From NCBI RefSeq assembly GCF_022919115.1, contig NZ_CP095072.1, positions 1,984,001 through 2,048,000 of the forward strand: a DNA stretch of 64,000 nt, written 5' to 3'. Below the pieces are notes generated by a model. That model did no database searches. It was not told the origin of the DNA and saw only the letters and a program-made list of their open reading frames with translations. Below are positions 5,023 to 52,686 of this stretch, one piece after another. The translations under genes were made by a program, and so were the position numbers. Source of the stretch: Gracilibacillus caseinilyticus. Its GTDB lineage: Bacteria; Bacillota; Bacilli; Bacillales; Amphibacillaceae. Positions within the stretch are counted from its first letter, which is position 1. Every line of letters begins with the position of its first letter.

Positions 5023-5283
5023 CATTTTGAAATTGTCTATGTGCTAGGCTGTCGCTCCGCCCAACCACTCCGCATCCTGCGGGGCACGGATTCAGCTAGG
5101 CTACTACTTGAACTGCGTCTTTGCTGCCTTGTGCCGAGGAAGCCTGTTTCGAAGCAATACTTGCAGACACAGGCACAGACAAAGTGGACCTTCAGCTCGC
5201 GCAGGACGCGAAGTGGTTGGCCGGAGCGGTATCCCAGCACATAAACAATTTCAAAATCACTACCAAGTTAGTTAACATAATCC
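5023..5283. repeat. Dispersed palindromic repeat, copy A
   Basis: An intergenic element with long imperfect terminal inverted repeats. The left arm ATTTTGAAATTGTCTATGTG matches the reverse complement of the right end (CACATAAACAATTTCAAAAT), and pairing continues inward through the CGCTCCG / CGGAGCG and CCACTCCGCATCCTG / CAGGACGCGAAGTGG segments. The central core (about 5085-5190, with CTTGTGCCGAGGAAGC) is not self-complementary. The same arms and core recur near 10.2, 27.2, 42.2 and 52.4 kb. Small ORFs here on both strands are by-products of the palindrome. Confidence 0.88.
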
Positions 5284-5412
5284 TACTATAATAAAACAAT
5301 CCCAATAACGTGCGAATAACATCGCAATTATGACAAATCATCCGCAAAATTGCCGTCGAATTTCCCGGGAAATATCGAATCGTATCCAAAAAAACAGAAA
5401 TCGATCCAGATA

Positions 5413-5421
5413 TGTTACAAT
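5413..5421 (+). promoter_or_regulatory. Candidate extended -10 promoter for ywzB
   Basis: TGTTACAAT matches an extended -10 (TGnTATAAT) and lies 35 nt upstream of the ywzB ATG. No good -35 is seen 17 nt upstream, which is tolerated by extended -10 promoters. A separate start makes sense because the atp terminator and repeat A lie upstream. Confidence 0.4.
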
Positions 5422-5455
5422 ATAAAATAAATCATAGGTTAGTGAGGGATTTTGA

Positions 5456-5692
5456 ATGTTGGAGAGTTTAGCGCAGGATGGGTTGATCGGCATGTTATCT
5501 CATCTGCTTTTTATTGTGATCACATGGCAAGTATTGCAATCATTAAATTTTGATGAATGGTTCAAAAAGCATAAAGTAATGGAAGCAAGAATCTTCCTTA
5601 TATTAATCACGATTACGATCGGTTCCACCGTAAGTAACTTTTTCTTAGATTTCTTAAACTGGTCGCAGCAACTGTTATATATGTTTTCTTAA
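5456..5692 (+). CDS. ywzB: DUF1146 small membrane protein YwzB
   Basis: A 78-residue protein with two transmembrane segments (about 10-30 and 46-64) around a short charged loop (NFDEWFKKHKVMEAR). Length, sequence style and place between atpC and ywmB/murA match the YwzB/DUF1146 family of Bacillaceae. The function is unknown. ATG at 5456 follows GTGAGGG. Confidence 0.85.
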   Translation: MLESLAQDGLIGMLSHLLFIVITWQVLQSLNFDEWFKKHKVMEARIFLILITITIGSTVSNFFLDFLNWSQQLLYMFS

Positions 5693-5787
5693 GATATGCC
5701 AATTCATCTATATTAAAAAGATAAGATCTTCATGTATGGATACTTCATTTTCTGCCAATACTTTTTACTAAAAAAGGAGTGCGGGGA

Positions 5788-6489
5788 ATGAAGTATTTAC
5801 TTTTTTCTATTACGGCAATGATGATGATATTTTTTGTGCAGCAATTAGATGCGAAAACGACGGAGGATAATACGAAAGAGATAAATGATATGGTGGCGAT
5901 GATAGAGGAACAAGACTTGAATCTAGCAAACTTAGAAACTACTATTAGAGAAAGAAGAACAATTCAAGAAATTTCTCGTTTTATCGACAATCTGGAAGGG
6001 TATCAACTAACTATGGTTGACGACGATACGTATAAATTAGATTCAAACCGTCGGAATAATAGTGGGGTTAACGAATCATTATTAATAGTGCGCACATATG
6101 AAAAGAAAAATGAATATCAAGTACTTTATACTATTTCAACGACGAAAATGACGCCGGAAGTACTAGAAAAGTTTCAGGAGAATATAAAAGGAGTTACAAA
6201 ATCATTATTTACAGACAAAGCACAATATTTCTCTTGTGCACAAGCATGGAAAAATGGTATTATAGATATTGTTTCTTTTATAAATTTTGTAAAATCTGAA
6301 CTGAAAATGTCAATTATTGACGAAGTAAATGAGCCAGACTTCACTACATGGACTGGTTATACAGCGAAATGGAAGCAGGAAATACAGCAATATGATCAAG
6401 AATTCAATATACAAATCGCCGTTAGAGAAGGGATAGGAGACAGAAGTACCGTAACAATTGGAACACCTATCCTGATAAATGAATACTAA
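5788..6489 (+). CDS. ywmB: YwmB family secreted protein
   Basis: A 233-residue protein with an N-terminal signal-like hydrophobic segment (YLLFSITAMMMIFFVQQLDA) and a mixed alpha/beta body. It sits between ywzB and murA exactly as ywmB does in Bacillus; family members are annotated as TATA-box-binding-like folds of unknown role. I chose ATG 5788 rather than the in-frame GTG 5779, because GTG overlaps the Shine-Dalgarno AAAAAGGAG (5771-5779 region) that serves 5788. Confidence 0.75.
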   Translation: MKYLLFSITAMMMIFFVQQLDAKTTEDNTKEINDMVAMIEEQDLNLANLETTIRERRTIQEISRFIDNLEGYQLTMVDDDTYKLDSNRRNNSGVNESLLIVRTYEKKNEYQVLYTISTTKMTPEVLEKFQENIKGVTKSLFTDKAQYFSCAQAWKNGIIDIVSFINFVKSELKMSIIDEVNEPDFTTWTGYTAKWKQEIQQYDQEFNIQIAVREGIGDRSTVTIGTPILINEY

Positions 6490-6524
6490 TAATAATGAAT
6501 ATGCACTACAGAGGAGAATGAGCC

Positions 6525-7844
6525 TTGGAAAATATCATCGTTCGTGGTGGGAGGCAGTTAAATGGTACCGTTAAAGTAGAAGGTGCCAAAAATGCCGTAC
6601 TGCCTGTCATTGCAGCAAGCATAATTGCAAGTGAAGGAAAAAGTATTATACACGAAGTACCTGCATTAGCAGATGTACTCACTATAAATCAAGTATTAAC
6701 GCACATGAACGCAGAAGTTAAATATGAAAAGAACACCGTTACAGTTGATGCAACACAACCACTTCTAACAGAAGCTCCTTTTGAATATGTACGTAAAATG
6801 CGTGCTTCTGTACTGGTATTAGGGCCATTGTTAGCTCGTTATGGTCATGCGAAGGTTGCTATGCCGGGAGGATGTGCAATTGGCTCAAGACCTATTGACC
6901 TTCACTTAAAAGGCTTCGAAGCAATGGGGGCAGATGTACATGTAGGTAATGGTTTTGTTGAAGTTTCAACAAATGGCAGATTGAAGGGTGCAAAGATCTA
7001 TCTGGATATGCCGAGTGTTGGAGCAACAGAGAACATTATGATGGCCGCAGCACTTGCAAATGGTAAGACAATCATCGAGAATGCTGCAAAGGAACCAGAA
7101 ATAGTAGACTTGGCCAACTATCTGAACAAAATGGGTGCGCATGTTATTGGAGCAGGAACTGAGACAATTAAAATCGAAGGCGTCGATAGACTGTATGGCG
7201 CAGAGCATACGATTATCCCGGACCGTATTGAGGCGGGAACATTTATGGTAGCTGCAGCAATTACAGGTGGAAATGTTTTGATTGAGAACGCTGAAGTGGA
7301 TCATATGCGCGCACTAGTATCGAAGATGGAAGAAATGGGAGTCCGTATTCTTGAAGAAGCGGATGGTGTTCGCGTGATTGGACCGAAAACTCTTCAATCG
7401 ACCGATATTAAGACATTGCCACACCCAGGTTTTCCAACGGATATGCAGTCACAGATGATGGCACTTATGCTACATGCAGCAGGTACAAGTGTAATTACTG
7501 AAACTGTTTTTGAAAATCGTTTTATGCATGTTGAAGAATTTAGAAGAATGAATGCGAAATTGAAGATCGAAGGCCGCAGTGTGATTGTAGAAGGTCCTGT
7601 AAGTTTACAAGGGGCTGAAGTAGCTGCCACAGACTTACGCGCAGGAGCTGCGTTAATTTTGGCAGGACTGGTAGCAGATGGTTACACACGTGTTACTTCT
7701 CTGCACCATATTGACAGAGGGTATGTCGATATCACGGAAAAATTTGCGAAACTCGGGGCGGATATTGAACGCGTTAACGCAATGGAAACATCTTTTGTAG
7801 CAGAAGCTAATATAGCGGATACAGAACAAATAGAAGTACAATAA
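6525..7844 (+). CDS. murA: UDP-N-acetylglucosamine 1-carboxyvinyltransferase MurA
   Basis: A 439-residue enzyme of the first committed step of peptidoglycan synthesis, transferring enolpyruvate from PEP to UDP-GlcNAc in the cytosol. The fosfomycin-target Cys is present at residue 117 ([14 protein letters not shown]), and the Lys-Asn pair (AKNAVLP) is at residues 22-23. The two inside-out alpha/beta domains appear complete. It starts at TTG 6525 behind GAGGAGA. The location before spoIID identifies it as the MurAA-type paralogue. An intrinsic terminator follows. Confidence 0.97.
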
Positions 7845-7852
7845 TAGAGATA

Positions 7853-7892
7853 AGAGGACAGCAGAGACATATGCTAGTCCTCTTTTTCTTTC
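7853..7892 (+). terminator. Intrinsic terminator after murA
   Basis: AGAGGAC (7853-7859) pairs with GTCCTCT (7877-7883) and is followed by TTTTCTTTC. It isolates the vegetative murA from the sporulation gene spoIID. Confidence 0.85.
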
Positions 7893-8005
7893 ATAAAAAT
7901 CACTAATGACAACGAGAAGAGCCAAGTTTATCTATAATGTTCTATTCTCCTAATCTTGTGAATAAAATAGAGTAGAAATACAAGACAAGAATGAGGAGGT
8001 TATTC

Positions 8006-9064
8006 ATGGCCAAATGGCAGTACAAAAAAACCAAACAGTCCAACTGGAAAATGCCCGTCATAGTCATCGTAGCAACTTTACTGACCTTTATGTTCATCGT
8101 ACCTACAATCATAGTTATTCCGTTTAAAGGGGATAACGCAACACAAGCATCTATCGAAAAACAGGCCGAAGAAGCGACAGCTGCAGCACCCGTCACATTG
8201 GATTCTCCTTTTGATGTCAATGTCTTACGTAGTGAAACGGACGAAGTCGAAAAGGTACCATTGGAGGATTATGTCGTACACGTAGTTGCCTCGGAGATGC
8301 CCGCAGATTTCGAATTAGAGGCATTGAAGGCACAAGCGCTAGCGGCAAGAACGTATATCACTCAATACCTAACACAAGGTCAACAAGGCAAGTTAGAAGG
8401 TGGGGCAGATGTAACCGATACCGTCCAGCATCAAGTTTATAAGAACGAAGATGAACTACGCCAAGTGTGGGGGAGTGATTATCATTGGAAAATTGAAAAA
8501 ATCACAGAAGCAGTAGCAGCCACACAAGGTAAGATTATCACTTATAGTAACCAGCCGATCACACCAGCATTCTTCTCTACAAGTAACGGATATACCGAGA
8601 ATTCGGAAGATTACTGGGAAGGCGAACTGCCATACCTTCGTACGGTGGAAAGCCCATGGGATGAAGAAATTTCACCTAAATTTTTTGATCAAAAGATATT
8701 TACGAAGCCAGAATTAGAAAAAAAATTAGGTGTAACGATTTCCAGTCAGATCAATGATTTTCAATTGACGAGGACAGAAAGTAAACGGGTAGAAACTGTC
8801 AAAATAGGTGACAATACATTCTCAGGTCGTGATATACGAGAAAAACTCGGCCTGCCATCGAATGACTTCACAATCACGAAAAAAGACGATCATTACGTCT
8901 TTACTACGAAAGGATATGGGCATGGCGTCGGTATGAGTCAATACGGAGCAAATGGCATGGCGAAGGAAGGAAAAACGTACGAAGAGATCATCGAATATTA
9001 CTACCAGGGCGTGCAGGTTTCCACGCTGGAAAAGGCAACACCAAAACTTTTAGTAAAAAAATAA
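8006..9064 (+). CDS. spoIID: Stage II sporulation protein D (SpoIID)
   Basis: A 352-residue, membrane-anchored lytic transglycosylase of the mother cell. With SpoIIP and SpoIIM it degrades septal peptidoglycan to drive engulfment. One N-terminal TM segment (about residues 17-38) precedes the SpoIID domain. That domain includes VASEMPADFELEALKAQALA, which holds the catalytic-type Glu, and the C-terminal GYGHGVGMSQYGANGMA motif. ATG 8006 is preferred over the in-frame ATG 7991, because the latter lies in the AGGAGG ribosome site. The gene is expected to be sigma-E dependent, but I could not identify the promoter with confidence. Confidence 0.95.
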   Translation: MAKWQYKKTKQSNWKMPVIVIVATLLTFMFIVPTIIVIPFKGDNATQASIEKQAEEATAAAPVTLDSPFDVNVLRSETDEVEKVPLEDYVVHVVASEMPADFELEALKAQALAARTYITQYLTQGQQGKLEGGADVTDTVQHQVYKNEDELRQVWGSDYHWKIEKITEAVAATQGKIITYSNQPITPAFFSTSNGYTENSEDYWEGELPYLRTVESPWDEEISPKFFDQKIFTKPELEKKLGVTISSQINDFQLTRTESKRVETVKIGDNTFSGRDIREKLGLPSNDFTITKKDDHYVFTTKGYGHGVGMSQYGANGMAKEGKTYEEIIEYYYQGVQVSTLEKATPKLLVKK

Positions 9065-9073
9065 TTTTTTTAT

Positions 9074-9103
9074 GTATATTTTTTCCTCTATTTGATCACA
9101 ATG
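9074..9103 (+). promoter_or_regulatory. Candidate sigma-F promoter of spoIIQ
   Basis: GTATA (9074-9078), 15 nt, then GATCACAATG (9094-9103). This fits the forespore sigma-F consensus GYATA-N15-GGNNANANTW with one mismatch in the second G, and sits 20 nt before the spoIIQ ATG. spoIIQ is a known sigma-F gene in Bacillus subtilis; assignment here is by consensus and context. Confidence 0.5.
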
Positions 9104-9122
9104 GTTGCTGAGGTGATGCATA

Positions 9123-10043: not shown

Positions 10044-10048
10044 ATACG

Positions 10049-10088
10049 AATCTCCTTACCTGTGAAAATAGGTAAGGAGATTTTTTTG
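10049..10088 (+). terminator. Intrinsic terminator after spoIIQ
   Basis: AATCTCCTTACCT pairs with AGGTAAGGAGATT, followed by a T7 run and GC. Confidence 0.93.
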
Positions 10089-10210
10089 CATGGCAGGAAT
10101 ACTATAAAATTCTCTCAGATAGCATTCTGGCTTAAAAGAACCACATATATAATGTATGACATGAAGGCAAATTACAAAAATAATAATGTGATTTGGTTTC
10201 TTATAATAAG

Positions 10211-10374
10211 GATTATGTAATGCTAGCATGTTTTGCGAAATGATTATATTGATAGAAAGTATTTGCTTAGCAAAGCTCTAGAAATATGCTCCACAGGACG
10301 CGAAGTGGTTGGTCGAGCGGGTATCCTACCACTAACAACATGTCAAAATAACCGCTAAGCTAACTGACATAATC
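10211..10374. repeat. Dispersed palindromic repeat, copy B (short)
   Basis: Starts GATTATGTAA and ends GACATAATC, the conserved termini of the family. The left arm is of the second type (GCTTAGCAAAGCTCTAGAAATATGCTC), the right arm of the first type (GGACGCGAAGTGGTTGGTCGAGCGGGTATCC, read in two halves). The central core seen in copies A, D and E is missing, so the two arms meet at CCACAGGACGCG. Confidence 0.8.
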
Positions 10375-10388
10375 TGTATTAAAGGAAG

Positions 10389-10541
10389 TTGTATTTAGAG
10401 GATCGAGCGAGATGCCTAGTTTTTATATACAACGAACATAACGTTCCTAAAAGCGATCATCCTGTCGATAATATGAGGTATTTGACGAACGAATATACCG
10501 ATTTACCTATTGAAATCTATCTCGAATATGAAATAATATAG
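10389..10541 (+). pseudogene. Possible gene remnant between repeat B and the AimR-like gene
   Basis: An open frame of 50 codons from TTG 10389 to TAG 10541 reads like a protein end (VPKSDHPVDNMRYLTNEYTD, then LPIEIYLEYEII). It has no usable ribosome site and begins right at the border of repeat B. I do not recognise it. It may be the C-terminus of a gene cut by the repeat or by deletion, or chance. Confidence 0.25.
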
Positions 10542-10562: not shown

Positions 10563-11594
10563 ATGGAAACTACAAAAATAAAAACTGGGATGATCCGCGA
10601 ATATTTTGAATCCGAGAAGCAGATGCAACTCTCACAATTTCTCACGATGATCAGCCTAGATAACGACGAAACACAGGAACTATCCATCACTAAAGATTTT
10701 TTACTTCTTAGTAACTCCACCACAGATCAACGTCTTGCCTTAGAATATTTTTACATCAATCGATCCTACCAGGAAGTGCAGTACTTTATTAAATTAAATA
10801 AGGAACATTGTCATCCGCTAAATAAAAATTCAGCAAAACTATATCAGCTTATGCTCGACTTAAGAGCGGGCAAACCTGCCCATGAAGTTAGGGCACTCGC
10901 GAAAACGGTTTCCGCCGATACACCAGAATTAAAGTGTATAAAATACTTTTTAAATATAGAGGTAGATTCAAAAGTATATAACTTTGAAAGAATCGGATAT
11001 TTTTTAAACAAAATCCAAAAACAAATATGTTATGTGGATAATCCACTTTTGATTACTTTCTTTAATAGTAGAATTCAAATTATTTTGTTTCATTATTATT
11101 GGAAGCGCAACGAATTAATTCTGGCAAGGAAACATGCTTACGAAGCACTGCAGCTACCGCATCAAGCCAAACAAAAAGCAGAACTTCATTTGAATTTGGC
11201 ATTAACGTATATTTATGAAGATTTTCATTCGTGTCTCTATCACATCGAAGAGGCAAAATACTTGGCAATCGCCCTGGATGATAGAGAAACTTTAGATATG
11301 ATTGATAATTTCACCTATCCATTTGTTTGTGCGCATTTTGGAAAGACTGAAGGTGTAGACACAAAACATCCTGTAGAAAAAGCACATCTTGAAATTGCGA
11401 AAGGGAACTTCGATGTAGCAACGCAAATGCTGGAAGGCCTCGAATTCACCACTCCCTTCTCGCAATACTATTTAGGACTCGCCACCAAGAAGCAACATTT
11501 TTTTATACATTCTTACCAACACTTTATGGAGAAAAGGAGTGATCATTTTTTTGCTAAATTGCCACTTAAAGCTTCTGAAGGATTAGGTTTATAA
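10563..11594 (+). CDS. AimR-like TPR peptide-receptor protein
   Basis: A 343-residue all-helical protein resembling the TPR part of AimR, the arbitrium peptide receptor of Bacillus phages. From memory of phi3T AimR I see matching patterns: xLAKxVxxxTxExKC, the mid-protein ARKHAYEAL / AELHLNLALTYIYED helices (compare NAREICENI / AIAYLTLGNSYIFES) and a C-terminus FFAKLPLKASEGLG (compare YFLKLPLLELKKLG). The N-terminal region is short and lacks an obvious helix-turn-helix, so DNA or other binding is uncertain. It ends about ten residues early. AGGAG lies before ATG 10563. No phage genes surround it; it lies alone between spoIIQ and spoIIID. It might act on a short peptide encoded just downstream. 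Confidence 0.7.
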   Translation: METTKIKTGMIREYFESEKQMQLSQFLTMISLDNDETQELSITKDFLLLSNSTTDQRLALEYFYINRSYQEVQYFIKLNKEHCHPLNKNSAKLYQLMLDLRAGKPAHEVRALAKTVSADTPELKCIKYFLNIEVDSKVYNFERIGYFLNKIQKQICYVDNPLLITFFNSRIQIILFHYYWKRNELILARKHAYEALQLPHQAKQKAELHLNLALTYIYEDFHSCLYHIEEAKYLAIALDDRETLDMIDNFTYPFVCAHFGKTEGVDTKHPVEKAHLEIAKGNFDVATQMLEGLEFTTPFSQYYLGLATKKQHFFIHSYQHFMEKRSDHFFAKLPLKASEGLGL

Positions 11595-11678: not shown

Positions 11679-11680
11679 AA

Positions 11681-27164: not shown

Positions 27165-27270
27165 GGTGATTTGACATTTCTAATGTGCTAAGCATAGCTC
27201 CGGAAATATGCCCTCTAGGACGCGGAGTGATTGGCCGGAGCGGTATCCTAGCACAAGAATTATTTCAAAA
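27165..27270. repeat. Dispersed palindromic repeat, copy C (short)
   Basis: The left arm is type 2 (TAATGTGCTAAGCATAGCTC, CGGAAATATG), the right arm type 1 (GCGGAGTGATTGGCCGGAGC, GGTATCCTAGCAC), then TTATTTCAAAA. The arms join at CTCTAGGACGCGG without the central core, as in copy B. The outermost GATTATGT/ACATAATC ends are eroded here. Confidence 0.75.
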
Positions 27271-27713: not shown

Positions 27714-28047
27714 CTCCTATCAATATCGCACCTGCTATAATACAAACAACGCCAAGCAGATTTTTTCCTTCAAGTATTTCGTCGAGAAAGACACTTCCAA
27801 AGACAACGGCAAATATATAGCCAGTACTTAAGAAAGGGTGCAACACGGATAAACTGCCAAATCGGTAAGCCAGAATCATAAAAACAGCTCCAAGGAAATA
27901 ACAAACAAATCCGCCAATTAACCATAAATTAATATCAGCATCAGATATTTTCCATTGTAATTGACCAAAAGCGGTAAGAAGCGCAGCAACAACCATTAAG
28001 AGTATGCCATATTTGTTATGGTGATAAGATTCTTTCATCCTTGTCAT
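27700..28047 (-). CDS. EmrE-like four-TM DMT-superfamily protein (flippase subunit 1)
   Basis: 115 residues with four TM helices. The YRFGSLSVLHPFLSTGYIFA segment and LDEILEGKNLLGVVCIIAGA end are DMT/EamA-like. It overlaps the GT-C gene by 4 nt and its own partner by 14 nt, so the two subunits are probably made in equal amounts. MTRMKESYHHNKYG may start at the first or second Met. Confidence 0.72.
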   Translation of the reverse strand: MTRMKESYHHNKYGILLMVVAALLTAFGQLQWKISDADINLWLIGGFVCYFLGAVFMILAYRFGSLSVLHPFLSTGYIFAVVFGSVFLDEILEGKNLLGVVCIIAGAILIGGGDD

Positions 28048-29780
28048 GCTCTTCGCTCCTTTTGCTTTCTGTCAGTCAGTAATGCACAAAGAAATAGAAA
28101 GGCAATGGCAAAACTGTTCGCTAATAAATATCGGAAATCCTGTGCCGGAATACCAGCTGTAACGGTCCCGATATTCAAGATAACTGGTACTGTTACAAGC
28201 CAAGCTCTCCAGCTTGTTTTGCGTGCAGCAATATATCCCATTAATAACAGGAAGAACATATAGGTTGCCGGGCGCCAAATTAATGTTTTAAAATGGATTT
28301 CCGTAATATTCAGCATTCTTTCCATTTTGTCATGTAGCCAGTTACTTACAGGCTCTTGTTCGATATTAAATGTGTTTGCGTGATAGATACCACCTGGATT
28401 GAGGTTAGTATACCCATCAGAAGGCTCATTCATTTGCCATACCAAAGAGGTCTGCTTTAAAAAGGCTTCTGTCACAATGACAGGGTTTTTTAGCGAGACG
28501 CTTGCCCATGTTTTTGCATAGTAGCCCACGTCATCAAAGACCACATCACTGTTATAATCCCCTGAGAATTTAATTGGATCGGTAATATAGGGATCGTAAT
28601 ATTGATGCCACTTATCCTCTGGCATCATTTGATAGATATATTGTTCCTCTTCTTCAGAGAGGTCTCCATTTTCAACAACTACTCTTGCAAATTGTTGTGT
28701 AGGAATTCCCAAAGCTTCGTTCGGATCCTTATTATCGACTTGAAAAGCGGTGAACAACGGTCCAGTAATGATCATATAGCTGGCTATTACAGCCACAAGC
28801 GTGATGAGCAGTTGCTTCCAATAAGGTAAAAACATAACAATCATCACAATAGTTAACGCGAAATAAATAGGAATGCCATTGCTTCTCATTAACATCAATG
28901 CTAAACCGGTAAAACCTAATAACAGTAAGTGCATGTTCTTGCGAAGCCATTGACCGCGTGAGGAATAGACGGCAAACATTAAGATCGTCAGCAATAAGAG
29001 AATGGCACTATAGAGAATGTCCTTCCATAGTACGATCGAAAATGCCCCGTAAACGGGAAAACACGCGATAAATAGATTACAGATATAGATCAGGATCCGG
29101 TGTATGCCAGCCTTTTGAAATTGGTAAAGGCCATAGCCGAAGATCAAGCTCAGAATGATGATTTGAGCAAGACCTACAACAGCCGGTGAATACCAGATTT
29201 TTGTCAGTATGATCATCAGCCACGTATAGACAACCGGATGCCAGTTATTAAATTCAAACGTATGAATTTGGCGCCAGTGAGCGAAAGAGTCAGGAGACAT
29301 TTCTCCAGGGAAATTCGCTAATAGATAAATGCTCCAGCCGATAATAGGGAGGATCGAATAGATAAGAATCATCCATTTAGATACATACTGCTGTTGCAAG
29401 ACGAATGATTTTCTCATCATAACAGCAGTAATACTGAGAACCGTACTAAAGACAGCGACACAAGCACCAATCAATGTAACAAGCTGAACAATCAAACTCA
29501 TCGATTTAAAATGTCCAATAGAGAAGGTGCTGAATAAAACAACTAAAGTCAAAAGGATCATGAAAATCATATTACCTTTCGTATAAATATGTTTTACGAA
29601 CTTTTCCCTGTAAGTAATAGTCTCATAGAATAGTACGGCATATACAGTAAGAAAAAAGATACCGGTAGCAGTGATCGATAAGACCGACATCTCTTTAATC
29701 GGATCAAACCAGTTTAACATAGTGACAGATGCAAACAGCGTAATACCAATTAATAATAAGAAATAAATGATTTTATTCAT
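28044..29780 (-). CDS. GT-C-type multi-TM glycosyltransferase (DUF6020-like)
   Basis: About 578 residues with roughly 12 TM helices. An acidic motif in an outer loop (PGEMSPDSFAHWRQ) and the WHPVVYTWL segment resemble the dolichyl/undecaprenyl-P-sugar-using GT-C enzymes (DUF6020 group). A large outer loop lies near residues 330-470. It would take a sugar from an undecaprenyl-phosphate carrier and add it to a wall polymer or protein outside the cell. ATG 29780 (MNKIIYF) is preferred over 29792 because TGAGGGA between them serves as ribosome site. The ATG overlaps the end of the upstream GT2 gene. Confidence 0.75.
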   Translation of the reverse strand: MNKIIYFLLLIGITLFASVTMLNWFDPIKEMSVLSITATGIFFLTVYAVLFYETITYREKFVKHIYTKGNMIFMILLTLVVLFSTFSIGHFKSMSLIVQLVTLIGACVAVFSTVLSITAVMMRKSFVLQQQYVSKWMILIYSILPIIGWSIYLLANFPGEMSPDSFAHWRQIHTFEFNNWHPVVYTWLMIILTKIWYSPAVVGLAQIIILSLIFGYGLYQFQKAGIHRILIYICNLFIACFPVYGAFSIVLWKDILYSAILLLLTILMFAVYSSRGQWLRKNMHLLLLGFTGLALMLMRSNGIPIYFALTIVMIVMFLPYWKQLLITLVAVIASYMIITGPLFTAFQVDNKDPNEALGIPTQQFARVVVENGDLSEEEEQYIYQMMPEDKWHQYYDPYITDPIKFSGDYNSDVVFDDVGYYAKTWASVSLKNPVIVTEAFLKQTSLVWQMNEPSDGYTNLNPGGIYHANTFNIEQEPVSNWLHDKMERMLNITEIHFKTLIWRPATYMFFLLLMGYIAARKTSWRAWLVTVPVILNIGTVTAGIPAQDFRYLLANSFAIAFLFLCALLTDRKQKERRA

Positions 29781-30705
29781 ATTTTCCCTCATTGGAAATC
29801 TTGTTTAATTCCAATTCGAATTGTTTTTTATGGCTGGTTGCGACAGTATCAAGAATCAAACCGCAAGTAAGCGACACGACAGATAGTAAGACAAGCCCTA
29901 CTGCGAGAATAGCGGATGGGATTTTATCCACTTCACCAGTAACAGCAAATTCGGTAATAACCGGAATACCACTGGCTAGTCCTAATATCATGAAGAGTAA
30001 AGCCCAAATCGCAAAGAATAGCATCGGCTTATATTCTTTAAACAAGGTAAAGATTTTGTTAAGCACCTTAAATCCGTCACTTAATGTGTTCAGTTTGGAC
30101 TCACTGCCCTCTGGTCGATCTCGATAATCAATCGCGATCTCTTTTATTGCTAAACGTTTGTCTAAAGCATGAATAGACATCTCTGTTTCGATTTCGAATC
30201 CTGGACTCATAACAGGCATTGATTTAACAAAAAGTCTGTCAAAAGCACGATAGCCTGTCATAATGTCATTCAATTCACTTTTGTAAAGAAAATTGATTAA
30301 TCCTTTTACCAGCGTGTTACCAAAATTATGGAACGGGCGTTTGTTTTCTTCGGTATACGTACCGTTAGATAATCGGTCACCAATGACCATGTTCGCGTAA
30401 CCGTCTTTAATTGGATCGATCAGTTGATGTACAAATGAAGCTGGATATGTCTGGTCACCATCCACCATCACGTAGCAATCTGCATCAATTTCTCTGAACA
30501 TGGAACGTACCACATTACCTTTACCTTGGCGCCATTCTTTTTTTACAATTGCACCGTGTTCCTCTGCTACTTTCGATGTATTATCTGCAGAGTTATTGTC
30601 GTATACGTAAATAGTTGCACCAGGCAATTCTTTCTTAAAATCTTTTATGACTTCTCCGATTGTTTGCTCTTCATTATAGCAAGGGATCAATATTGCAATT
30701 TCCAA
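29773..30705 (-). CDS. Polyprenyl-phosphate glycosyltransferase, GT2 family
   Basis: 310 residues. The GT2 catalytic domain (EIAILIPCYNEEQTIGEVI; YDNNSADNT; metal-binding VMVDGDQTYP; the EIETEMSIHALDKRL region) is followed by two C-terminal TM helices, the architecture of DPM1/CsbB-like enzymes that load a sugar onto undecaprenyl phosphate at the inner membrane face. TTG 30705 follows AAGGAGG. It is first in the four-gene operon, divergent from the flippase gene at 30922. The sugar cannot be read from sequence. Confidence 0.85.
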   Translation of the reverse strand: MEIAILIPCYNEEQTIGEVIKDFKKELPGATIYVYDNNSADNTSKVAEEHGAIVKKEWRQGKGNVVRSMFREIDADCYVMVDGDQTYPASFVHQLIDPIKDGYANMVIGDRLSNGTYTEENKRPFHNFGNTLVKGLINFLYKSELNDIMTGYRAFDRLFVKSMPVMSPGFEIETEMSIHALDKRLAIKEIAIDYRDRPEGSESKLNTLSDGFKVLNKIFTLFKEYKPMLFFAIWALLFMILGLASGIPVITEFAVTGEVDKIPSAILAVGLVLLSVVSLTCGLILDTVATSHKKQFELELNKISNEGKYE

Positions 30706-30921
30706 TGGAAGTCCTCCTTAATTACAATTAAATGTATTATTGTTATTTTACCCAAATAACGAGTATAGCAAAAAAAATAAAAAAATGTAATTCCATATTA
30801 TCAATTCGTATAGTAAATCTAAAAAAAAAATGATAAAATAAGTTTTGGATTATGTCTATGATATGATAGAATATGGATTCATCTTAGACATATGCTTATT
30901 AATGAAGTGAGGTCTTGTTTT

Positions 30922-32430
30922 TTGAAATCAAAGTTAGGTTTAGCCAGTTTATGGTTTATTGTTATCTCATTATTATTAAAAGTCTCTGGACTCATCAGAG
31001 ACATGGTCATTGCATTTTATTTTGGAGATAGTTATGTAGCAGATGCATATCTAGCTGCCTTCATTATACCAAATATGTTTATATTATTTATGACAACAGG
31101 TATGAAGAATGCGTTCGTACCGTCATACACAGATGCTCTTCAAGAAGGGAATGCCAGCAGTCATCTTAAAGATATCTACAGAGGCAATGGATGGATAAGC
31201 CTAATTGTAGCATTACTGGGAGCGGGTCTTGCTCCGGTCTATGTTCCATTACTTTATCCGGACTTCTCTCCCGAAGCATTGGATATCGCTGTTTATTCTA
31301 CCATGATTTTATTCGCTGCGGTATTTTTCACAGGGATGAATGCCGTGTTAGAAGCGTTATTTGACGCGAAGAGTAAGTTTAGTCTCTCTGTATTTTCACA
31401 AGTAATTGTGATCCTGACATCGATTTTATCGGCTTTTTTATTTGCTGAAGAGATTGGCGCTTATTCCATTGCAATCGGGTATGTAGCTGGTACAGTTATT
31501 TCCCTGATATTAAAGAAAATAATTATTAGAAAACAACATATTGTCTCTTTATTTGGTAAATTAAATAAAGCAGAGTTAAAATCATTTTACCCTGTATTTA
31601 TACCAGTAGGGCTTACAGTTGCGGTAGGGCAGATCAATCTGATGATTGGTACCATTTATGCCAGTAAGTTCAGTGAAGGTGCCATTACGTATATTAATTA
31701 CGCCAAGAACCTTGTACACATGCCGCAAGCCTTGTTTGGGGTGACGATAGGGACTATCATCTTCCCGATTCTGTCGAAAGCCATTTCAACCGATAATCGT
31801 GCACTGTTCAAGAGAGGGATTGAACAAGGTTTAACGACGATGTACTTTGTTTTACTGCCAGCTACTATTGGCATGATGTTATTGATGCCAAATATTATCG
31901 CACTGTTGTATCAACGCGGAGCCTTCTCAGAAAGTGCAACCATGCAAACATCTTATGTTGCGTATTATTACTTTGGATCTGTATTATTCTTTAGCTTAAA
32001 CCAAGTTATCAATAAAGGCTTTTACTCTCTCAAGAAAGGGCACGTTATTCTGTTTATCAGTGGAAGCTCGATCTTGCTGACTTTTGCACTGAATGCTATT
32101 TTCACACATTGGCTTGGTTATTTAGGAATTCCATTAGCAGCATCGGTAAACGGTCTGTTATATGCGTTAGGAACGTTCCTGATTTTCTTAAAGCAGGTCG
32201 GTGGTTTGTCTTTAAGAAGTATGACAGTAGAATTTCTGAAGACGACATTCGCTGTAGCAGTAATGAGTGCAGTGGTTCTGTTAATCAAACCAATCTTGCC
32301 TTTTGACCAGAACCTGCTGATTATTGTGGTCATTGCAATTGCAGGTGCTGCTGTTTATACACTTACAGCCTGGTTATGTAAGATTCAGTCTATGCAGATT
32401 ATATTAAAAAAGTTTTTAAAGAAATCGTGA
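30922..32430 (+). CDS. MurJ/MviN-family polysaccharide or lipid II flippase (first copy)
   Basis: 502 residues from TTG 30922 (MKSKLGLASLWFIVISLLLK). About 14 TM helices, with MviN motifs KVSGLIRDMVIAFYFG, DAYLAAFIIPNM and MPQALFGVTIGTIIFPILSK. TTG has AGTGAGG 9 nt upstream; the in-frame ATG 30892 lacks a ribosome site. It is first of a run with PIG-L, TagO paralogues and wall-polymer enzymes, so it probably exports a lipid-linked glycan rather than lipid II itself. A second copy is at 50955. Confidence 0.85.
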   Translation: MKSKLGLASLWFIVISLLLKVSGLIRDMVIAFYFGDSYVADAYLAAFIIPNMFILFMTTGMKNAFVPSYTDALQEGNASSHLKDIYRGNGWISLIVALLGAGLAPVYVPLLYPDFSPEALDIAVYSTMILFAAVFFTGMNAVLEALFDAKSKFSLSVFSQVIVILTSILSAFLFAEEIGAYSIAIGYVAGTVISLILKKIIIRKQHIVSLFGKLNKAELKSFYPVFIPVGLTVAVGQINLMIGTIYASKFSEGAITYINYAKNLVHMPQALFGVTIGTIIFPILSKAISTDNRALFKRGIEQGLTTMYFVLLPATIGMMLLMPNIIALLYQRGAFSESATMQTSYVAYYYFGSVLFFSLNQVINKGFYSLKKGHVILFISGSSILLTFALNAIFTHWLGYLGIPLAASVNGLLYALGTFLIFLKQVGGLSLRSMTVEFLKTTFAVAVMSAVVLLIKPILPFDQNLLIIVVIAIAGAAVYTLTAWLCKIQSMQIILKKFLKKS

Positions 32431-32452
32431 GTAAAAAAAGGGAGTCATCTTA

Positions 32453-33352
32453 ATGAATAGTAAAGAACTCATGTTGCGAATAGCAAAACCCATTAACTAT
32501 CCAATTACGAAATATGCGTTAAACAACTATTACAATGACAAGAAAAGCTTATCCACTGCCAATGTAGCAAAGAATGTGTTAGTGTTAGCGCCACATATGG
32601 ATGACGAAACAATAGGGCTTGGCGGTACCATAAAGAAACACGCCAGCGAAGGTGCTGATGTACATGTAGCATTAATTACAGATGGGTCCAATAGTGTGAG
32701 TTCTTTATCAAAAGAAGCGCTGACCAAAAAAAGAATTCAGGAAATGCAGGAAGTCAAAAAATTATTGGGGATAAAAGACATTATCTACATGGGATTACCA
32801 GATGGAAATGTCCGTTCCACTGATCATGCACAATCTAAACTTATACAAATCATAAAAGATGTCAATCCTGATCTTGTGTATTGCACATTGTTTGTAGATG
32901 CTCACCCGGATCATACGGAAACAGCCATTCTATTAGCAAATGTCATTCCGAAACTGGAAGACTGTCAGTTTGATATCCGCCTTTATGAAATCAACTGTGC
33001 GATCCCGCCATCTTATATTAACTGTGTGGTGGATATAAGCGAGACTTTCGCTGACAAGAAGCAGGCGATCGATACGTTCCAGTCACAAGCTATTGCATTT
33101 GACGGGTTTATCTCATTGAATCAATGGAAAACCAATTTAGTTGCGGAACAGACAGATGCTGTTGAAGTATTTATTGAGTTATCCAAAGAGCAGCTTGTCC
33201 AGCAGAAAGAAGTATTAAAACAATATAAGTCACAATACCCGGATCTTTTTAAACAAATCAACCGTACCGATACTTTGTTGTGGGCGATATATCAAAATCA
33301 AAAAGAGAAAAAGAAGTTTTATGACGAGGCGTTTATGGGAAGTAATAAATAG
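32453..33352 (+). CDS. PIG-L (LmbE-like) family N-deacetylase
   Basis: 299 residues. The zinc-site motif APHMDDETIGLGG (His48, Asp50, Asp51) and the second metal ligand in DAHPDHTETA are intact. PIG-L enzymes remove the N-acetyl group from GlcNAc-type sugars. It lies 22 nt after the flippase gene, so deacetylation of a GlcNAc/ManNAc unit of the same polymer is plausible. No signal peptide, so it acts in the cytosol. The N-terminal 40 residues are an extension to the core domain. Confidence 0.85.
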   Translation: MNSKELMLRIAKPINYPITKYALNNYYNDKKSLSTANVAKNVLVLAPHMDDETIGLGGTIKKHASEGADVHVALITDGSNSVSSLSKEALTKKRIQEMQEVKKLLGIKDIIYMGLPDGNVRSTDHAQSKLIQIIKDVNPDLVYCTLFVDAHPDHTETAILLANVIPKLEDCQFDIRLYEINCAIPPSYINCVVDISETFADKKQAIDTFQSQAIAFDGFISLNQWKTNLVAEQTDAVEVFIELSKEQLVQQKEVLKQYKSQYPDLFKQINRTDTLLWAIYQNQKEKKKFYDEAFMGSNK

Positions 33353-42204: not shown

Positions 42205-42454
42205 TGATTATGTAAAGTAGCTTAATGGTAATTTTGAAATTGTTTATGTGCTACCGCTCCGGCCAACTACTCCGCATTCTCTGGGCCACGGCTGAAGCTA
42301 GGCTACAACTTGAACTTCTTCATTGCTACTTGCCTTGTGCCGAGGAAGTTGAGGCCGCCCCCACAGGATGCGGAGCAAATTTTCGGATCTTTGGCTAAGC
42401 AGATAAAATCTATCAAAATTAGCACGTTGATATACAGTTTTACTTAACATAATC
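42205..42454. repeat. Dispersed palindromic repeat, copy D
   Basis: GATTATGTAAAG begins it and TTAACATAATC ends it. The left arm is type 1 (TTTTGAAATTGTTTATGTGC, TACCGCTCCGGCCAACTACT). The core is in the same sense as copy A (CTTGTGCCGAGGAAG), but its right part is deleted. The right arm is type 2 (CGGAGCAAATTTTCGGATCT, TTGGCTAAGC). Confidence 0.87.
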
Positions 42455-42515
42455 AATATTACAAGATCACACACTTATTAATGAGTATGCTTGCTTCTGC
42501 AACAACTTTTACATA

Positions 42516-47425: not shown

Positions 47426-47432
47426 TGACAGA

Positions 47433-47470: not shown

Positions 47471-47567
47471 ATTCGGTAGTAAAAAATGGATTTGACAAAT
47501 GAAGATAATCGTACAAAATATAGCTGTTATCTTAAAATTACATATCAATAGAATAGGAGCAACTGAT

Positions 47568-47846
47568 ATGGTCAAAGAGTGGAATTTAATTCGTGTGTTT
47601 GCTTGTTTGAGTATTGTATTGCTTCATAGTATTACTCATACTAGATTAATAGCCGGCTATCCGGATATTGGCATTGTGTATGAGCTGATCCGCATTTTTC
47701 TTTGTTATGCAACACCTACTTTTATATTGCTCTCAGAAATTATTCTGGCAAATAAATATGGAAAAGCTCCGCTCAACCATAGCCAAGCCAAAATTCTTCA
47801 TATATTATCCTGTTTTTTCAACCACTTTCACTGTCCACTGACTTAA
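47568..47846 (+). pseudogene. Truncated acyltransferase-3 gene
   Basis: ATG 47568 (GGAGCAACTGAT upstream) encodes MVKEWNLIRVFACLSIVLLH-SITHTRL, the start of an acyltransferase-3 protein. It runs only about 80 residues (two TM helices) before the frame enters the tail of the convergent secA2/SLAP remnant near 47800. A whole family member has about 350 residues, so the gene was cut by a deletion whose edge lies at about 47.80 kb. Confidence 0.75.
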
Positions 47847-48367: not shown

Positions 48368-48625
48368 TATCTAGCCACTCCTTCTAGACGATAAAAGATC
48401 AGATATTCCAATCTTTAGTATATCATGAATAATCAACAATAACAGTAATGCTTAAGGTAGAAAAGTGACGAATCTTCAAAGATAAATATTTTCAAATGCA
48501 CAAAACATGTTAAAATAGTATAATGGTATGTATTGTCTGAGATAATAACAGGAAGACTTTATGAGTCGTTGACTACTAATAGATGGATTAAACTAACTAT
48601 GTGTTAAAAAAGGATGGAAGAAAGT

Positions 48626-50869
48626 ATGCTGATCGGCATTGTTGGAAATTATGGAAACAATAATAAAGGTGATGAAGCAATTCTTGAGGGGATTCTTCTT
48701 CAACTTGAAGAGATGTTTCAATTAGATCGTTCGAACATAATTGTATTCTCTAATCAACCGGAAAAGACAACTGCACAATATGGTGTTCAATCTCAACGCC
48801 TTTATTATAAAAAGAATAATGCTGTATTAACCATGTTTCGAACAATGCGAAGAAATGCAGCTGCTATTAGACAGTTAGATTTACTGATTGTCGGTGGTGG
48901 TGGTATTTTTATGGACTTATACGGGCGTGAAGCATTTTTATTTGGTATGTACGGATGGCTGGCAAAGCTTACAAGAACACCAGTTGTGTTGTACGGAGTA
49001 GGTGCTGGACCGATTCTGACCAAAACAGGGAAGCTGCTGTTACGCTCATTGGCGCATTTGTCGGATTTAGTGACGGTGAGAGATCCCAATTCCAAGAAAT
49101 TGTTGCAAGCAATTGGGGTTAAATCACCGGTACATGTCATTGGAGATCCGGCATTTCAGATTGAAGCACCGAAAGAGCAGGAAGCCACGGATTCGACGTC
49201 ACTGAAGATAGGAGTAACAGCTGTTCCGTATTATCATAAAAGTTACTGGCCACGTGAAGAAACAACGTACTACGAAAGATATGTAACAGGTATGGTAGCG
49301 AATCTGGATGCTTTAGCAGAAGTATATCCAGATTGCGAGATTCAATTTTTTTCAACCAAATATCCACAGGATGTACAAGTGACAGAAGATATCCAGCGCA
49401 GGATGAAGTATCGGGAATCTACCAGAATACAAGAGTATTTGGCGGATCCAAAAGAAATTGCCCAATTTGCTTCTGAACAGGATATTGTCATTGGGACAAG
49501 GCTGCATTCATTAATACTGGCACTAGTTTCTGGTACACCGGTGATTTCGGTTTCCTATCATCACAAAGTAGAGGATTTCATGGGAATGATCGGGATGGGA
49601 CAATACTCGATTCCTATTGAAAAACTGGATCAGGATGCTGGCTTTTTTGTGCAATCGATTGAAGTGATGCGAATGAATTGGACGCTTACCAAAGAAAGGT
49701 TCGGCAAGATTTCGAGCAAAATGCGAAAAGAAGCCTTTACCGGTATGGAATTGGTGAAAGAACGTATTATTGAAAGAACCAAGCAGCCGAAAGTGTTAGT
49801 ACTTAGTAATATGTATCCTTCTAAGCATTCTAGAACATTTGGAATCTTTGTGAAGAACCAAGTCGAGTTACTGAAGGAAAAAGGCGTCCAGGCGCATGTT
49901 ATATCTATTAAAGATCCACGAAAAGGAAAAGCGAGACTGCTGAAGAAATACGGTCTGTTTTTTGCCCGGAATTTGTGGCACATGATCTGGAAAGGCTGGC
50001 GGTATGATACTGTCCATGTTCATTATATATTTCCAACAGGGATCGTCGGACTAGCGTATAAATACTTATTTAACAAAAAATTAGTCGTCACCTCGCATGG
50101 TGGAGATATCGATCAAATGATCAAAAAGAATAACCGCGTCCGCCAGCTTTCTGAGCATATCTTACAGAAAGCGGATGATATTATCGTCGTTGGCGAAGGG
50201 TTGAAGCAGGATATTCATGACAACTTCTCTGTTGATCAAGCCAAAATATCGGTGATCAACATGGGGGTCAATCGTTCTGTATTTAAACCTGCTGGAAAAG
50301 CATTTGCACGGCAACAATTAGGATTACCAGCGGATCAGGAAATTATTCTTTTTATCGGGAATCTGATCTATGCCAAAGGACTGGACGACCTTGCGGAAGC
50401 GACAGCCTCATTGAAGGAAAAGCACCCGCAGCTTGTCACGCATTTAATTGGTGAACCGAAAGATGCTAGTTATTTTGAACAATTCCAACAGCAATATCGA
50501 TCAGAAGCGATCAAGGTTCATGGTTCCATCAGCCAGGAAGAACTAGCACTTTGGCTGTCTGCAGCAGACTGTTTTGTATTGCCGTCACATATTGAAGGAT
50601 TCGGTCTTGTGGCGTTAGAGGCCATGTCCTGTCACGTGCCGGTAGTTGGAACTGATGTCGGTGGCTTAACGTACTTATTAGCAGATCAGACGGGACTCAA
50701 GGTGAAACCAAAGGATCCGGACGATTTAGCAGACAAAATCGATCAAGTATTAACCTATCCGGCATTGGCGAATACATTGGTAGAAAATGGCCGCCTCAAA
50801 GCAGAAGCATATGACCAAAATCGTCTGATCGAATCGATATTAGCTATATATAAACAAAATAAAAACTAG
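48626..50869 (+). CDS. csaB: CsaB polysaccharide pyruvyl transferase fused to a GT4 glycosyltransferase
   Basis: About 747 residues in two domains. 1-380 is CsaB: LIGIVGNYGNNNKGDEAILE, the GGGGIFMDLYGREAFLFG loop and GTRLHSLILAL; CsaB puts ketal pyruvate on the secondary wall polymer that SLH domains bind. 388-747 is a GT-B, GT4-family transferase (VLVLSNMYPSKHSRTFGIFV; TSHGGDID; ADCFVLPSHIEGFGLVALEA with the E-x7-E site). The frame is uninterrupted between the domains. ATG 48626 fits AAAGGA better than the in-frame ATG 48614. It is upstream of a second MurJ-like flippase. Confidence 0.9.
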   Translation: MLIGIVGNYGNNNKGDEAILEGILLQLEEMFQLDRSNIIVFSNQPEKTTAQYGVQSQRLYYKKNNAVLTMFRTMRRNAAAIRQLDLLIVGGGGIFMDLYGREAFLFGMYGWLAKLTRTPVVLYGVGAGPILTKTGKLLLRSLAHLSDLVTVRDPNSKKLLQAIGVKSPVHVIGDPAFQIEAPKEQEATDSTSLKIGVTAVPYYHKSYWPREETTYYERYVTGMVANLDALAEVYPDCEIQFFSTKYPQDVQVTEDIQRRMKYRESTRIQEYLADPKEIAQFASEQDIVIGTRLHSLILALVSGTPVISVSYHHKVEDFMGMIGMGQYSIPIEKLDQDAGFFVQSIEVMRMNWTLTKERFGKISSKMRKEAFTGMELVKERIIERTKQPKVLVLSNMYPSKHSRTFGIFVKNQVELLKEKGVQAHVISIKDPRKGKARLLKKYGLFFARNLWHMIWKGWRYDTVHVHYIFPTGIVGLAYKYLFNKKLVVTSHGGDIDQMIKKNNRVRQLSEHILQKADDIIVVGEGLKQDIHDNFSVDQAKISVINMGVNRSVFKPAGKAFARQQLGLPADQEIILFIGNLIYAKGLDDLAEATASLKEKHPQLVTHLIGEPKDASYFEQFQQQYRSEAIKVHGSISQEELALWLSAADCFVLPSHIEGFGLVALEAMSCHVPVVGTDVGGLTYLLADQTGLKVKPKDPDDLADKIDQVLTYPALANTLVENGRLKAEAYDQNRLIESILAIYKQNKN

Positions 50870-50915
50870 TTAATCGATAGTTTTCCGATCATCGGTTAAC
50901 TAGTTTCCTTTTTTG
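50864..50915 (+). terminator. Terminator after csaB-GT4
   Basis: AACTAGTTAATCGATAG pairs imperfectly with ATCGGTTAACTAGTT, then TCCTTTTTT. Its left arm overlaps the csaB stop. Confidence 0.8.
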
Positions 50916-50954
50916 CACGTTAGGAAAGGATAGAATGGAAAGAAGGTGTTTAAG

Positions 50955-52406
50955 GTGCGCTGGGTAAAAATATTAGGAGCGGTCGCAGTCATTAATGTGA
51001 TTGCCCGGTTATTAGGATTTGCTAGAGAAGTAGTGATTGGCTATCAGTATGGTACAACGTATGTGGCAGATAGTATTATTACTGCTTTTACCGTTCCTAA
51101 TTTTATTTATCTCGTGGTTGGTGGTGCCATAACGACTGCCTTTATTTCCGTATACAGCAAATTAGCAGAGTCAAAAAAACAGCTGTTCATTAATAATATA
51201 TGGACGATATTGCTGATCATTTTAAGCGTTCTGACGGTGATCAGTATCGTATTCGCCGAGTATTTTATCCATTTATTATTTAGCGGCTTGTCGGGTCCAT
51301 CGTTCCAATTAACGGTTCATTTGTATCAAGTTATGGCACCGTCTTCGTTGTTTCTCGTCATCGGAATGTGGCTGAGCGGATTGTGGAATATACAAGGCTA
51401 TTACCGATTGACGGCTTTCGCAACGCTAGTGTTCAACGGTGTATTCCTGACCTTTGGTGCTGGACTTACAGGATTATTTTCCACTTATTCGTATGCAGTT
51501 GGTGCTGTTGCAGGGGCTTTTCTGATGGCATTTCTGTTATATACGAAATGGCTGAAGGAGCAACGCCCGATTTCTTTCCAAATCGGACTTGGTCCAAATC
51601 GTAATGAAATGTGGCGCTTTATGAAATTGGCATTACCGATTTTATTAGGCGGTGCCACGTTACAATTTTATTTTTTGATTCAGCGTATATATGCTTCTCA
51701 GTTAGAGGAAGGGATCATAGCATCACTGAATTATGCCAGTAAGATGACACAATTTCCTCAGGCAATCTTAATGACCAGTGTGACAACGGTTATGTATCCA
51801 CTGCTGTCCAAAGCGGTGGGGGATAATCAGAATGAGAAAGTGTCACGTATTTATCAGAAAGGGATCCGCTGGTTATTTATTTTACTAGTACCGGCGACCG
51901 CCTTTTTAATGAGTTATGCTAAGCCTATCATATCGGTTATTTTTGAATATGGGCAGTTTGATGAGCAGGCTACAGCAAGAACGTACCCGTTATTACAATG
52001 GCTCGCACTGTCAATGCTGCCATTGGCCATGAATACGTATATCACACGCTTCTTTTATGCGAAGGAGCAATCTTATTTACCGGTATTCTATAGTATGCTA
52101 TCCGTATTCGGTATTAATATTTTTATTATAAATATGTACATCGATCAGCTTGGTGTCTATGCGCTAGCAGTTGGTACTATCATTGCGACTGTGACCAATA
52201 TGATTTTCCTGATGATCACAGCCACGGTAAAATATCGCTTCACCGTAGGTAATCCGTGGGAGTGGAGTATATATGTCCTGCTGGCCAGCGGTCTGATTGT
52301 CATTAGCAAATCGGTTGTCGCAAGCTTCGATGAGTTGCTCATGCTAGCCTGTGGAGGTTTGCTGACGGCAGTGTTCATTTTGGTTGGATTACGGCTTTTT
52401 AAATAA
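50955..52406 (+). CDS. MurJ/MviN-family flippase (second copy)
   Basis: 483 residues from GTG 50955 (6 nt after AGAAGGTG), about 14 TM helices. MviN signatures: INVIARLLGFAREVVIGYQY, DSIITAFTVPNF, MTQFPQAILMTSVTTVMYPL. Only distantly similar to the copy at 30922. With csaB-GT4 it likely moves a lipid-linked polymer repeat, although B. subtilis-type MurJ (lipid II) function cannot be excluded. An upstream GTG (50946) sits in the ribosome site. Repeat E begins 4 nt after the stop. Confidence 0.85.
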   Translation: MRWVKILGAVAVINVIARLLGFAREVVIGYQYGTTYVADSIITAFTVPNFIYLVVGGAITTAFISVYSKLAESKKQLFINNIWTILLIILSVLTVISIVFAEYFIHLLFSGLSGPSFQLTVHLYQVMAPSSLFLVIGMWLSGLWNIQGYYRLTAFATLVFNGVFLTFGAGLTGLFSTYSYAVGAVAGAFLMAFLLYTKWLKEQRPISFQIGLGPNRNEMWRFMKLALPILLGGATLQFYFLIQRIYASQLEEGIIASLNYASKMTQFPQAILMTSVTTVMYPLLSKAVGDNQNEKVSRIYQKGIRWLFILLVPATAFLMSYAKPIISVIFEYGQFDEQATARTYPLLQWLALSMLPLAMNTYITRFFYAKEQSYLPVFYSMLSVFGINIFIINMYIDQLGVYALAVGTIIATVTNMIFLMITATVKYRFTVGNPWEWSIYVLLASGLIVISKSVVASFDELLMLACGGLLTAVFILVGLRLFK

Positions 52407-52410
52407 GAAA

Positions 52411-52686
52411 AACGGGTTTAATGGTAATTTTGAAATTGTTCATGTGTTGGTATACCGCTCCAGCCCTGTGGGCAGCACGAGCTGAAGACCCACTTTGTCT
52501 GTGCCTGTGTCTACAAGTATTGCTTCGAACCGGGCTTCCTCGGCACAAGGCAGCAAAGAAGCAGTGCAAGTAGTAGCCTAGCTGAACCGTGCCCCACAGG
52601 ACGCGGAGCATATTTCCGGAGCTTTGCCAAGCAGATAAAACCTATCAAAATAACCACATAGACTTACAGTTCCCCTTTACATAATC
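52411..52686. repeat. Dispersed palindromic repeat, copy E
   Basis: The longest copy. The left arm is type 1 (ATTTTGAAATTGTTCATGTG, GGTATACCGCTCC), the right arm type 2 (GGAGCATATTTCCGGAGCTT, TGCCAAGCAGATAAAAC), ending TTTACATAATC. Its core (CCCACTTTGTCTGTGCCTGT through GCTTCCTCGGCACAAGG to GGTTCAGCTAG-complement) is the reverse complement of the core in copy A, nearly base for base, although the outer arm on the left is the same type in both. Confidence 0.88.

Follow-up and report, generated by a model that had tools for sequence, protein, structure and literature searches.

Gene-free palindromic cassettes between facing dif-like sites in two Gracilibacillus chromosomes, candidate substrates for Xer-type inversion and exchange

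Two Gracilibacillus chromosomes carry dispersed palindromic elements in which a pair of dif-like sites face each other across a payload. From assembled sequence, one genome per species, we think it likely that these are gene-free cassettes between facing Xer sites, inverted and exchanged at sites of equal spacer by XerC and XerD or by a tyrosine recombinase of like specificity. The best reading is of solitary, gene-free, chromosomal D-type dif modules with putative XerCD action. A fuller picture is tentative, with our doubts slightly outweighing it: shuffling of some 200 or more such modules per chromosome may be running in both species, separated from dif by a two-base spacer change, with payloads inverted and exchanged by the enzymes of chromosome dimer resolution.

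Results

Repeat copies in the window

The window is a 64,000-nucleotide stretch of the Gracilibacillus caseinilyticus genome (GCF_022919115.1, contig NZ_CP095072.1, positions 1,984,001 to 2,048,000), in which the first-pass annotation had described five related, dispersed copies of a palindromic repeat. Reading and aligning all five (A to E) bore out both their relatedness and where they lie. None overlaps a listed open reading frame of at least 90 amino acids, in agreement with the intergenic placement described, and BLAST to a reference payload (L007) recovered the two reported arm types, with the core present in A, D, and E and absent from B and C. The family is above chance, as copy A matched at least 93 stretches of the host genome (40 of 326 candidates scored); a full-length copy from elsewhere in the genome, L010, gave at least 94 stretches (40 of 378 candidates scored). 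The copies and their sites are as follows (window coordinates).

5022..5290, no strand: copy A, after atpC; same-type arms at 5022-5089 and 5200-5290, core at 5068-5209 reversed (BLAST to L007, site matrix)
Within 5022..5290: right site of copy A, damaged by eye, no usable site
10142..10427, minus strand: copy B including both outer modules (profile pair, outer left and outer right modules)
10196..10223, plus strand: dif-like site of copy B, spacer TAAGGA, matrix score 26.6
10362..10389, minus strand: dif-like site of copy B, spacer TACAGA, unlike its partner, matrix score 26.5
27176..27270, no strand: copy C, arms alone, without a site (BLAST to L007, site matrix)
42206..42469, no strand: copy D, reversed core at 42270-42348 flanked by two arms of different type
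42442..42469, minus strand: right dif-like site of copy D, spacer TATTGA, score 20.1, partner site not found
52417..52701, no strand: copy E, with the left arm starting near 52417 (by eye) and the core plus right arm at 52473-52695
52674..52701, minus strand: right dif-like site of copy E, spacer TACAGA, score 34.7, partner site not found

The five copies are real, but the unit is larger than first described. Since full-length copies of about 570–600 bp occur elsewhere in the genome, those in the window are shortened derivatives. What had been called terminal inverted repeats are instead dif-like XerC/XerD sites; both are kept in copy B, but D and E have the right one only, and in A and C no site reaches a matrix score of 5. 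The cores of A (5209-5068) and E (52473-52695) do lie in opposite orientations, as had been noted, but the arms of A, being of a single type, give no reference for the orientation of its core relative to them. None of the five copies has two sites of equal spacer. Since the spacers of B are unequal, D and E have one site each, and A and C have none, all five are predicted from these sites to be immobile by an Xer mechanism. Folding of copy E was not outstanding (z -1.42), and Rfam gave no family match at gathering score within the window. The gene after copy B (10563-11594) matches AimR (PF22871, E 7.5e-55), a family of regulators resembling the phage arbitrium receptor.

Anatomy of intact elements

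To describe intact elements, we used 50 copies with matching ends from the host genome (G000; 4.51 Mb, one contig). The search pattern allowed three substitutions per end, so decayed copies are under-represented, and copies outside a 664-kb sample were picked by similarity. In an intact element, two facing sites whose XerD arms point inward enclose a palindromic payload of about 570–590 bp. Conservation continues beyond the 17-bp terminal repeat and is unlike on the two sides: the sites are bounded by conserved outer modules of roughly 55–60 bp, the left one (about 58 bp) holding a terminator-like hairpin when read on the minus strand and the right one (about 60 bp) terminating in CTTTCTT. Of 34 copies whose flanks were clear, the right end could be read in 21, and a strong hairpin (-12 kcal/mol or better) lay within 70 nt past it in 10 of these 21; the same was seen at 1 of 21 places to the left of elements and at 49 of 400 places drawn at random from the window. 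Because the outer left end reads as a minus-strand terminator, a large RNA carrying a terminator of its own was considered; the idea was dropped, as the payload is found in both orientations.

The payloads have no consistent reading frame, as the longest open reading frames of 42 payloads lie on various strands and frames (median 72 amino acids versus 53 in shuffled sequences, maximum 155 versus 143). Thus, the elements lack the genes whose carriage is usual for, rather than strictly defining of, a D-type dif module. The two arms of an element are about 70–75% alike as inverted repeats. In three mosaic copies (L016, L024, and L026), payload sub-segments are re-inverted relative to the ends, so rearrangement is not limited to the outer sites. 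By eye, the left flanks of L055 and L053 show a left end abutting right-end-like sequence, as if elements had inserted side by side, and both flanks of L010 and L020 have a stretch starting GGTTCTGCGTCAAATGTTGGGG, probably the end of an insertion sequence.

Element sites resemble the host dif

Each site consists of an 11-bp XerC arm, a 6-bp spacer, and an 11-bp XerD arm. The left and right consensus sites are ACTACCTATAATATGGATTATGTAAACT and GGTTCTTATAATATGGATTATGTAAAGT. The genome has a single place, at G000:3452225, with the sequence ACTTCCCATAATATATATTATGTAAACT and the spacer TATATA, which we take to be dif by its likeness to the B. subtilis dif sequence. A dif pattern with up to two mismatches had at least one match in 15 of 17 congeneric genomes. 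The exact B. subtilis dif 28-mer is counted once in an earlier dif survey (PMC3025954) and is also counted in two further papers. Of the 28 bases of the host dif, the left consensus shares 24, and of the 22 arm bases it shares 20; none of 2,000,000 random 22-mers of similar composition reached 20 matches. In a second genome, G011, one element site has all 22 arm bases of the G011 dif, with a different spacer. The XerC arm of the right site in G000, GGTTCTTATAA, is a poorer fit to dif than that of the left site, which counts against the Xer reading. Element spacers are mostly TATGGA or TACGGA, compared to TATATA in dif.

All 30 site pairs in the 664-kb sample of G000 were facing, with none direct or everted; 18 sites were unpaired. 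In 200 kb of G011, 18 pairs were facing, and the 4 direct and 2 everted ones, some of them between neighbouring elements, count against the Xer reading. Thus, the elements have two inversely oriented XerC-spacer-XerD sites with XerD inside, the arrangement of a D-type module.

Payload orientation and the switch point

We determined the orientation of payloads relative to their flanks. In G000, 33 of the 50 copies were clear (6 with an ambiguous core and 11 with ambiguous flanks were dropped) and divided 18:15. In G011, where 50 copies were found and 46 were long, 35 were clear (9 with ambiguous flanks and 2 with ambiguous cores were dropped) and divided 14:21. Classifiers trained on the 33 oriented G000 copies assigned single sites to four classes, OL-a, OL-b, OR-a, and OR-b, with counts of 33, 33, 33, and 31 in G000 (26 of 156 unclassified) and 17, 33, 26, and 24 in G011 (18 of 118 unclassified). 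Orientation is thus near even in two species. A fixed orientation is what the first-pass annotation had named as speaking against its reading, and its view of a MITE-like dispersed element with an invertible part was right.

In both species, the change from flank linkage to payload linkage falls inside the site. In the numbering used, the 28-bp site runs from -6 to 21, with the spacer at 5 to 10; linkage to the flank extended to base -1 (G000) or -3 (G011), and linkage to the payload end started at base 17 (G000) or 21 (G011). Since flank labels were set from the adjoining 15–20 bases, the association of those bases with the flank is partly by construction, and the informative part is the near absence of cross-association; the exception is base -10 in G011, which was associated with the payload end as well as the flank.

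This switch bears on a proposal made for the window copies, that the core inverts by recombination between the inverted arms. In its general form, homologous recombination between inverted arms, together with gene conversion among copies, would invert and spread payloads. The likeness of the arms as inverted repeats and the three mosaic copies would suit such a process. However, crossovers in arms of about 110 bp would scatter the switch, and in both species flank and payload identity change within the site; arm recombination also predicts neither the match to dif nor exclusively facing sites. We therefore disfavour arm recombination and consider it very improbable.

Payloads reassort among flanks

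Elements L008 and L009, 172 kb apart, have payloads identical over 578 bp, in opposite orientation and between unlike flanks. L044 and L046 share a payload (96.9%, opposite) and a right flank (97%), with left flanks just 70% alike, and in G011 the payloads of L254 and L257 are 96% alike in opposite orientation between flanks that are 93% and 85% alike. Across 861 pairs, payload and flank similarity were uncorrelated (r 0.024, p 0.41). This lack of correlation, together with the payloads shared between unlike flanks, indicates that payloads reassort among flanks.

Cassette exchange would explain free reassortment, but so would a nested transposon, in which the payload would be a MITE with 17-bp terminal repeats, inserted by a transposase either way round at one preferred spot in an older repeat made of the outer modules. 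Nested insertion accounts for the near-even orientation in two species, for the missing correlation between payload and flank, and for identical payloads in unlike flanks, and one payload-free flank is known: at L064:7913, found by pattern, left and right outer parts are joined through TTTAATA. However, such flanks are scarce, as none of 12 paired outer modules had a gap below 60 bp, and the match to dif extends into the flank. In addition, base 1, which lies inside the supposed terminal repeat, tracks the flank in G000, where 7 of 76 sites at left flanks have T, compared to 0 of 72 at right flanks; the counts in G011 (1 and 3) give no support. No target-site duplication was seen by eye at site borders or outer ends. 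The transposase search covered Y1 enzymes (PF01797) and gave no match in the host genome, compared to matches in 5 of 14 control genomes, a result that also speaks against the earlier suggestion of a REP-like element. As the dif match reaches into the flank, empty flanks are scarce, and base 1 tracks the flank in G000, we favour cassette exchange and regard nested transposition as unlikely.

Spacers of the two sites agree

As expected if sites within an element recombine with each other, the two spacers were identical in 37 of 50 G000 copies; shuffling partners gave a mean of 15.5 and a maximum of 27 in 20,000 trials. The 13 copies with unequal spacers count against this. Equality of left and right exceeded expectation at spacer bases 6 (48 versus 39.1) and 7 (42 versus 24.0), while most arm bases were equal at the expected rate, with base 17 raised (25 versus 19.8). 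By mutual information, bases -1 and 0 were associated between left and right (p 0.002 each); when analysed by end type, bases 17 (p 0.001) and 20 (p 0.015) were also associated. In G011, 13 of 18 elements agreed versus 11.1 expected, and since spacers there hardly vary, the test has no power in that genome. Thus, the putatively recombining sites of G000 share their spacer, as sites of D-type modules do. Spacer agreement could also come from inheritance of payload lineages.

Agreement is also compatible with pairing of the two ends in a folded strand. A folded single strand serves as an Xer substrate in phage CTX. By analogy, a folded strand of the element could be the mobile form, its paired sites forming one duplex site that Xer enzymes would recombine with a target, a route described in part in PMC5357621. 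As a single strand, L007 forms a much stronger fold than 20 shuffled sequences (DNA, z -8.35), with a stem that begins at the site core. Nevertheless, bases 20–23 beside the core match between ends no more than expected (base 20, 18 of 50 versus 20.8), so pairing is not maintained there, and the outer halves of the XerC arms are unpaired. A mobile folded strand thus seems to us a far-fetched explanation.

Candidate enzymes and a proposed mechanism

The host encodes both Xer recombinases. A XerD gene (L202; TIGR02225, 395.9 bits, cut-off 329.6) narrowly passes the XerC model too, and a XerC gene (L203) scores 359.2 bits with TIGR02224 (cut-off 335.15). XerC and XerD are CodV and RipX in Bacillus, and we take the neighbourhoods of L202 and L203 to be those of ripX and codV. 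An intact element lies directly downstream of xerD in G000 (L017 and L202, 3342755-3344225). XerC and XerD are among 12 tyrosine-recombinase family matches in G000, some of them broken, and another of these could be the acting enzyme.

We propose that sites with a common spacer are recombined by host XerC and XerD, the presumed enzymes, or by another tyrosine recombinase whose specificity is the same. A reaction between the paired sites of a single element would flip the payload relative to its flanks, while two successive crossovers between elements, perhaps between sister chromosomes, may place a payload in new flanks. A spacer unlike the TATATA of dif should prevent cassettes from reacting with dif itself. 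Site decay or spacer divergence would lock an element, and the process may still be running today.

Distribution

Allowing one mismatch at most, the 17-bp site core is present 374 times in G000, 474 times in G011, and 9 times in G016; the other 156 of 159 family genomes have 0–3 each (reversed control, 0–1 each). A site matrix trained on G000 sites was used to scan 57 of 75 named loci. It found 78 sites in the 664-kb G000 sample, 42 in a 200-kb sample of G011, and 2 in 248 kb of named Gracilibacillus. Halobacillus and Thalassobacillus (601 kb) had none, nor had Virgibacillus, Lentibacillus, and Ornithinibacillus (279 kb) or locally shuffled versions. As the 664-kb sample holds 30 pairs, we extrapolate to about 200 elements in the G000 genome. 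No match to a full-length copy turned up among 72,556 plasmid records and 50,697 phage records, sets that may omit entries very close to the host genome.

AtpC of the window is 83–92% identical to that of 13 named Gracilibacillus species, the closest named relatives (own genome left out). We compared by eye the gap after atpC in 12 readable named Gracilibacillus loci, leaving out L111. Five gaps are short (130–391 bp) and free of copies (L104, L105, L107, L108, and L159), three contain further members of the wider repeat family (L102, L109, and L160), three are filled with tandem minisatellites (L101, L103, and L112), and one is long with no recognisable copy (L106). Thus, occupancy differs among species. 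The DNA of window positions 28044-33352 had no match in G011, and matches above 400 bp between the first 200 kb of G000 and G011 were repeats only.

Parts of the payload are more widespread, matching 85 of 159 family genomes and 31 of 46 genera (E 0.001; at most three candidates scored per genome). Among the matches listed, most fall in query positions 384-512 and 78-201 of L010:1410-1990. These hairpin units contain the motifs CGCTTTCCGCGGG, CTTCAGC, and GGAGTCTGCG (for example in L081, L084, and L086) and mostly occur without dif-like sites; they look older than their position between such sites. We found no name for them, and the matches listed in a literature text search with the hairpin sequences look like primer matches. 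Bhal-1 of B. halodurans, likened here by its description (PMC2267715), could be the same hairpin.

Discussion

One dif per bacterial chromosome is the expectation, and earlier dif searches used single occurrence as a criterion (PMC3025954). In contrast, the chromosomes described here have several hundred dif-like sites with matched and mismatched spacers, a natural experiment. With hundreds of such sites per chromosome, the tolerance of XerCD and FtsK, the ability of the spacer alone to separate two pools of sites, and the way in which a gene-free cassette multiplies through site-specific recombination all become directly testable. Hundreds of active sites should endanger the chromosome, which argues against active modules. 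Confinement of XerCD action at dif to the terminus by FtsK (PMC11705084) likewise counts against active dispersed sites. Our search of the Xer-related open literature, with subscription papers mostly outside its scope, found no such system in Firmicutes; if the reading is true, it would be, as far as that literature was searched, the first in Firmicutes and the first made of gene-free palindromic DNA.

Several known systems share some of these features. EFAR of Enterococcus faecalis is dispersed, intergenic, palindromic, and gene-free, with a modular structure, and targets stem-loops. We know of no dif-like sites in EFAR or in bcr1, and we set both apart by description rather than by sequence. 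The bcr1 element is also dispersed, intergenic, palindromic, and gene-free (PMC3733652). IMEX resemble our elements in having dif-like sites, and they exploit host Xer enzymes (PMC5357621), as our elements are proposed to do. Unlike the Gracilibacillus elements, which are dispersed and have another spacer, IMEX integrate at the chromosomal dif, a single place at 3452225 in G000. The Ureaplasma mba locus undergoes Xer-type inversion at short inverted repeats, mediated by XerC (PMC3599477). It differs as a gene-switching locus rather than a dispersed gene-free family and is likened here by description, not by site sequence.

Finally, the dif (pdif) modules described from Acinetobacter (PMC13141974; PMC12907356) are gene-bearing and found chiefly on plasmids or in clustered islands, where C- and D-type modules alternate. 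The Gracilibacillus elements, in contrast, are palindromic, without a consistent reading frame, and solitary, with hundreds of sites across a Firmicutes chromosome. The likenesses are these: D-type modules are segments between inverse XerC-spacer-XerD sites with XerD inside, their arms are conserved around a variable 6-bp spacer, they undergo inversion and replacement at equal spacers, and chromosomal modules are also reported (PMC13141974; PMC12907356). For Acinetobacter, inversion of modules between facing sites of equal spacer is reported on experimental grounds (PMC13141974).
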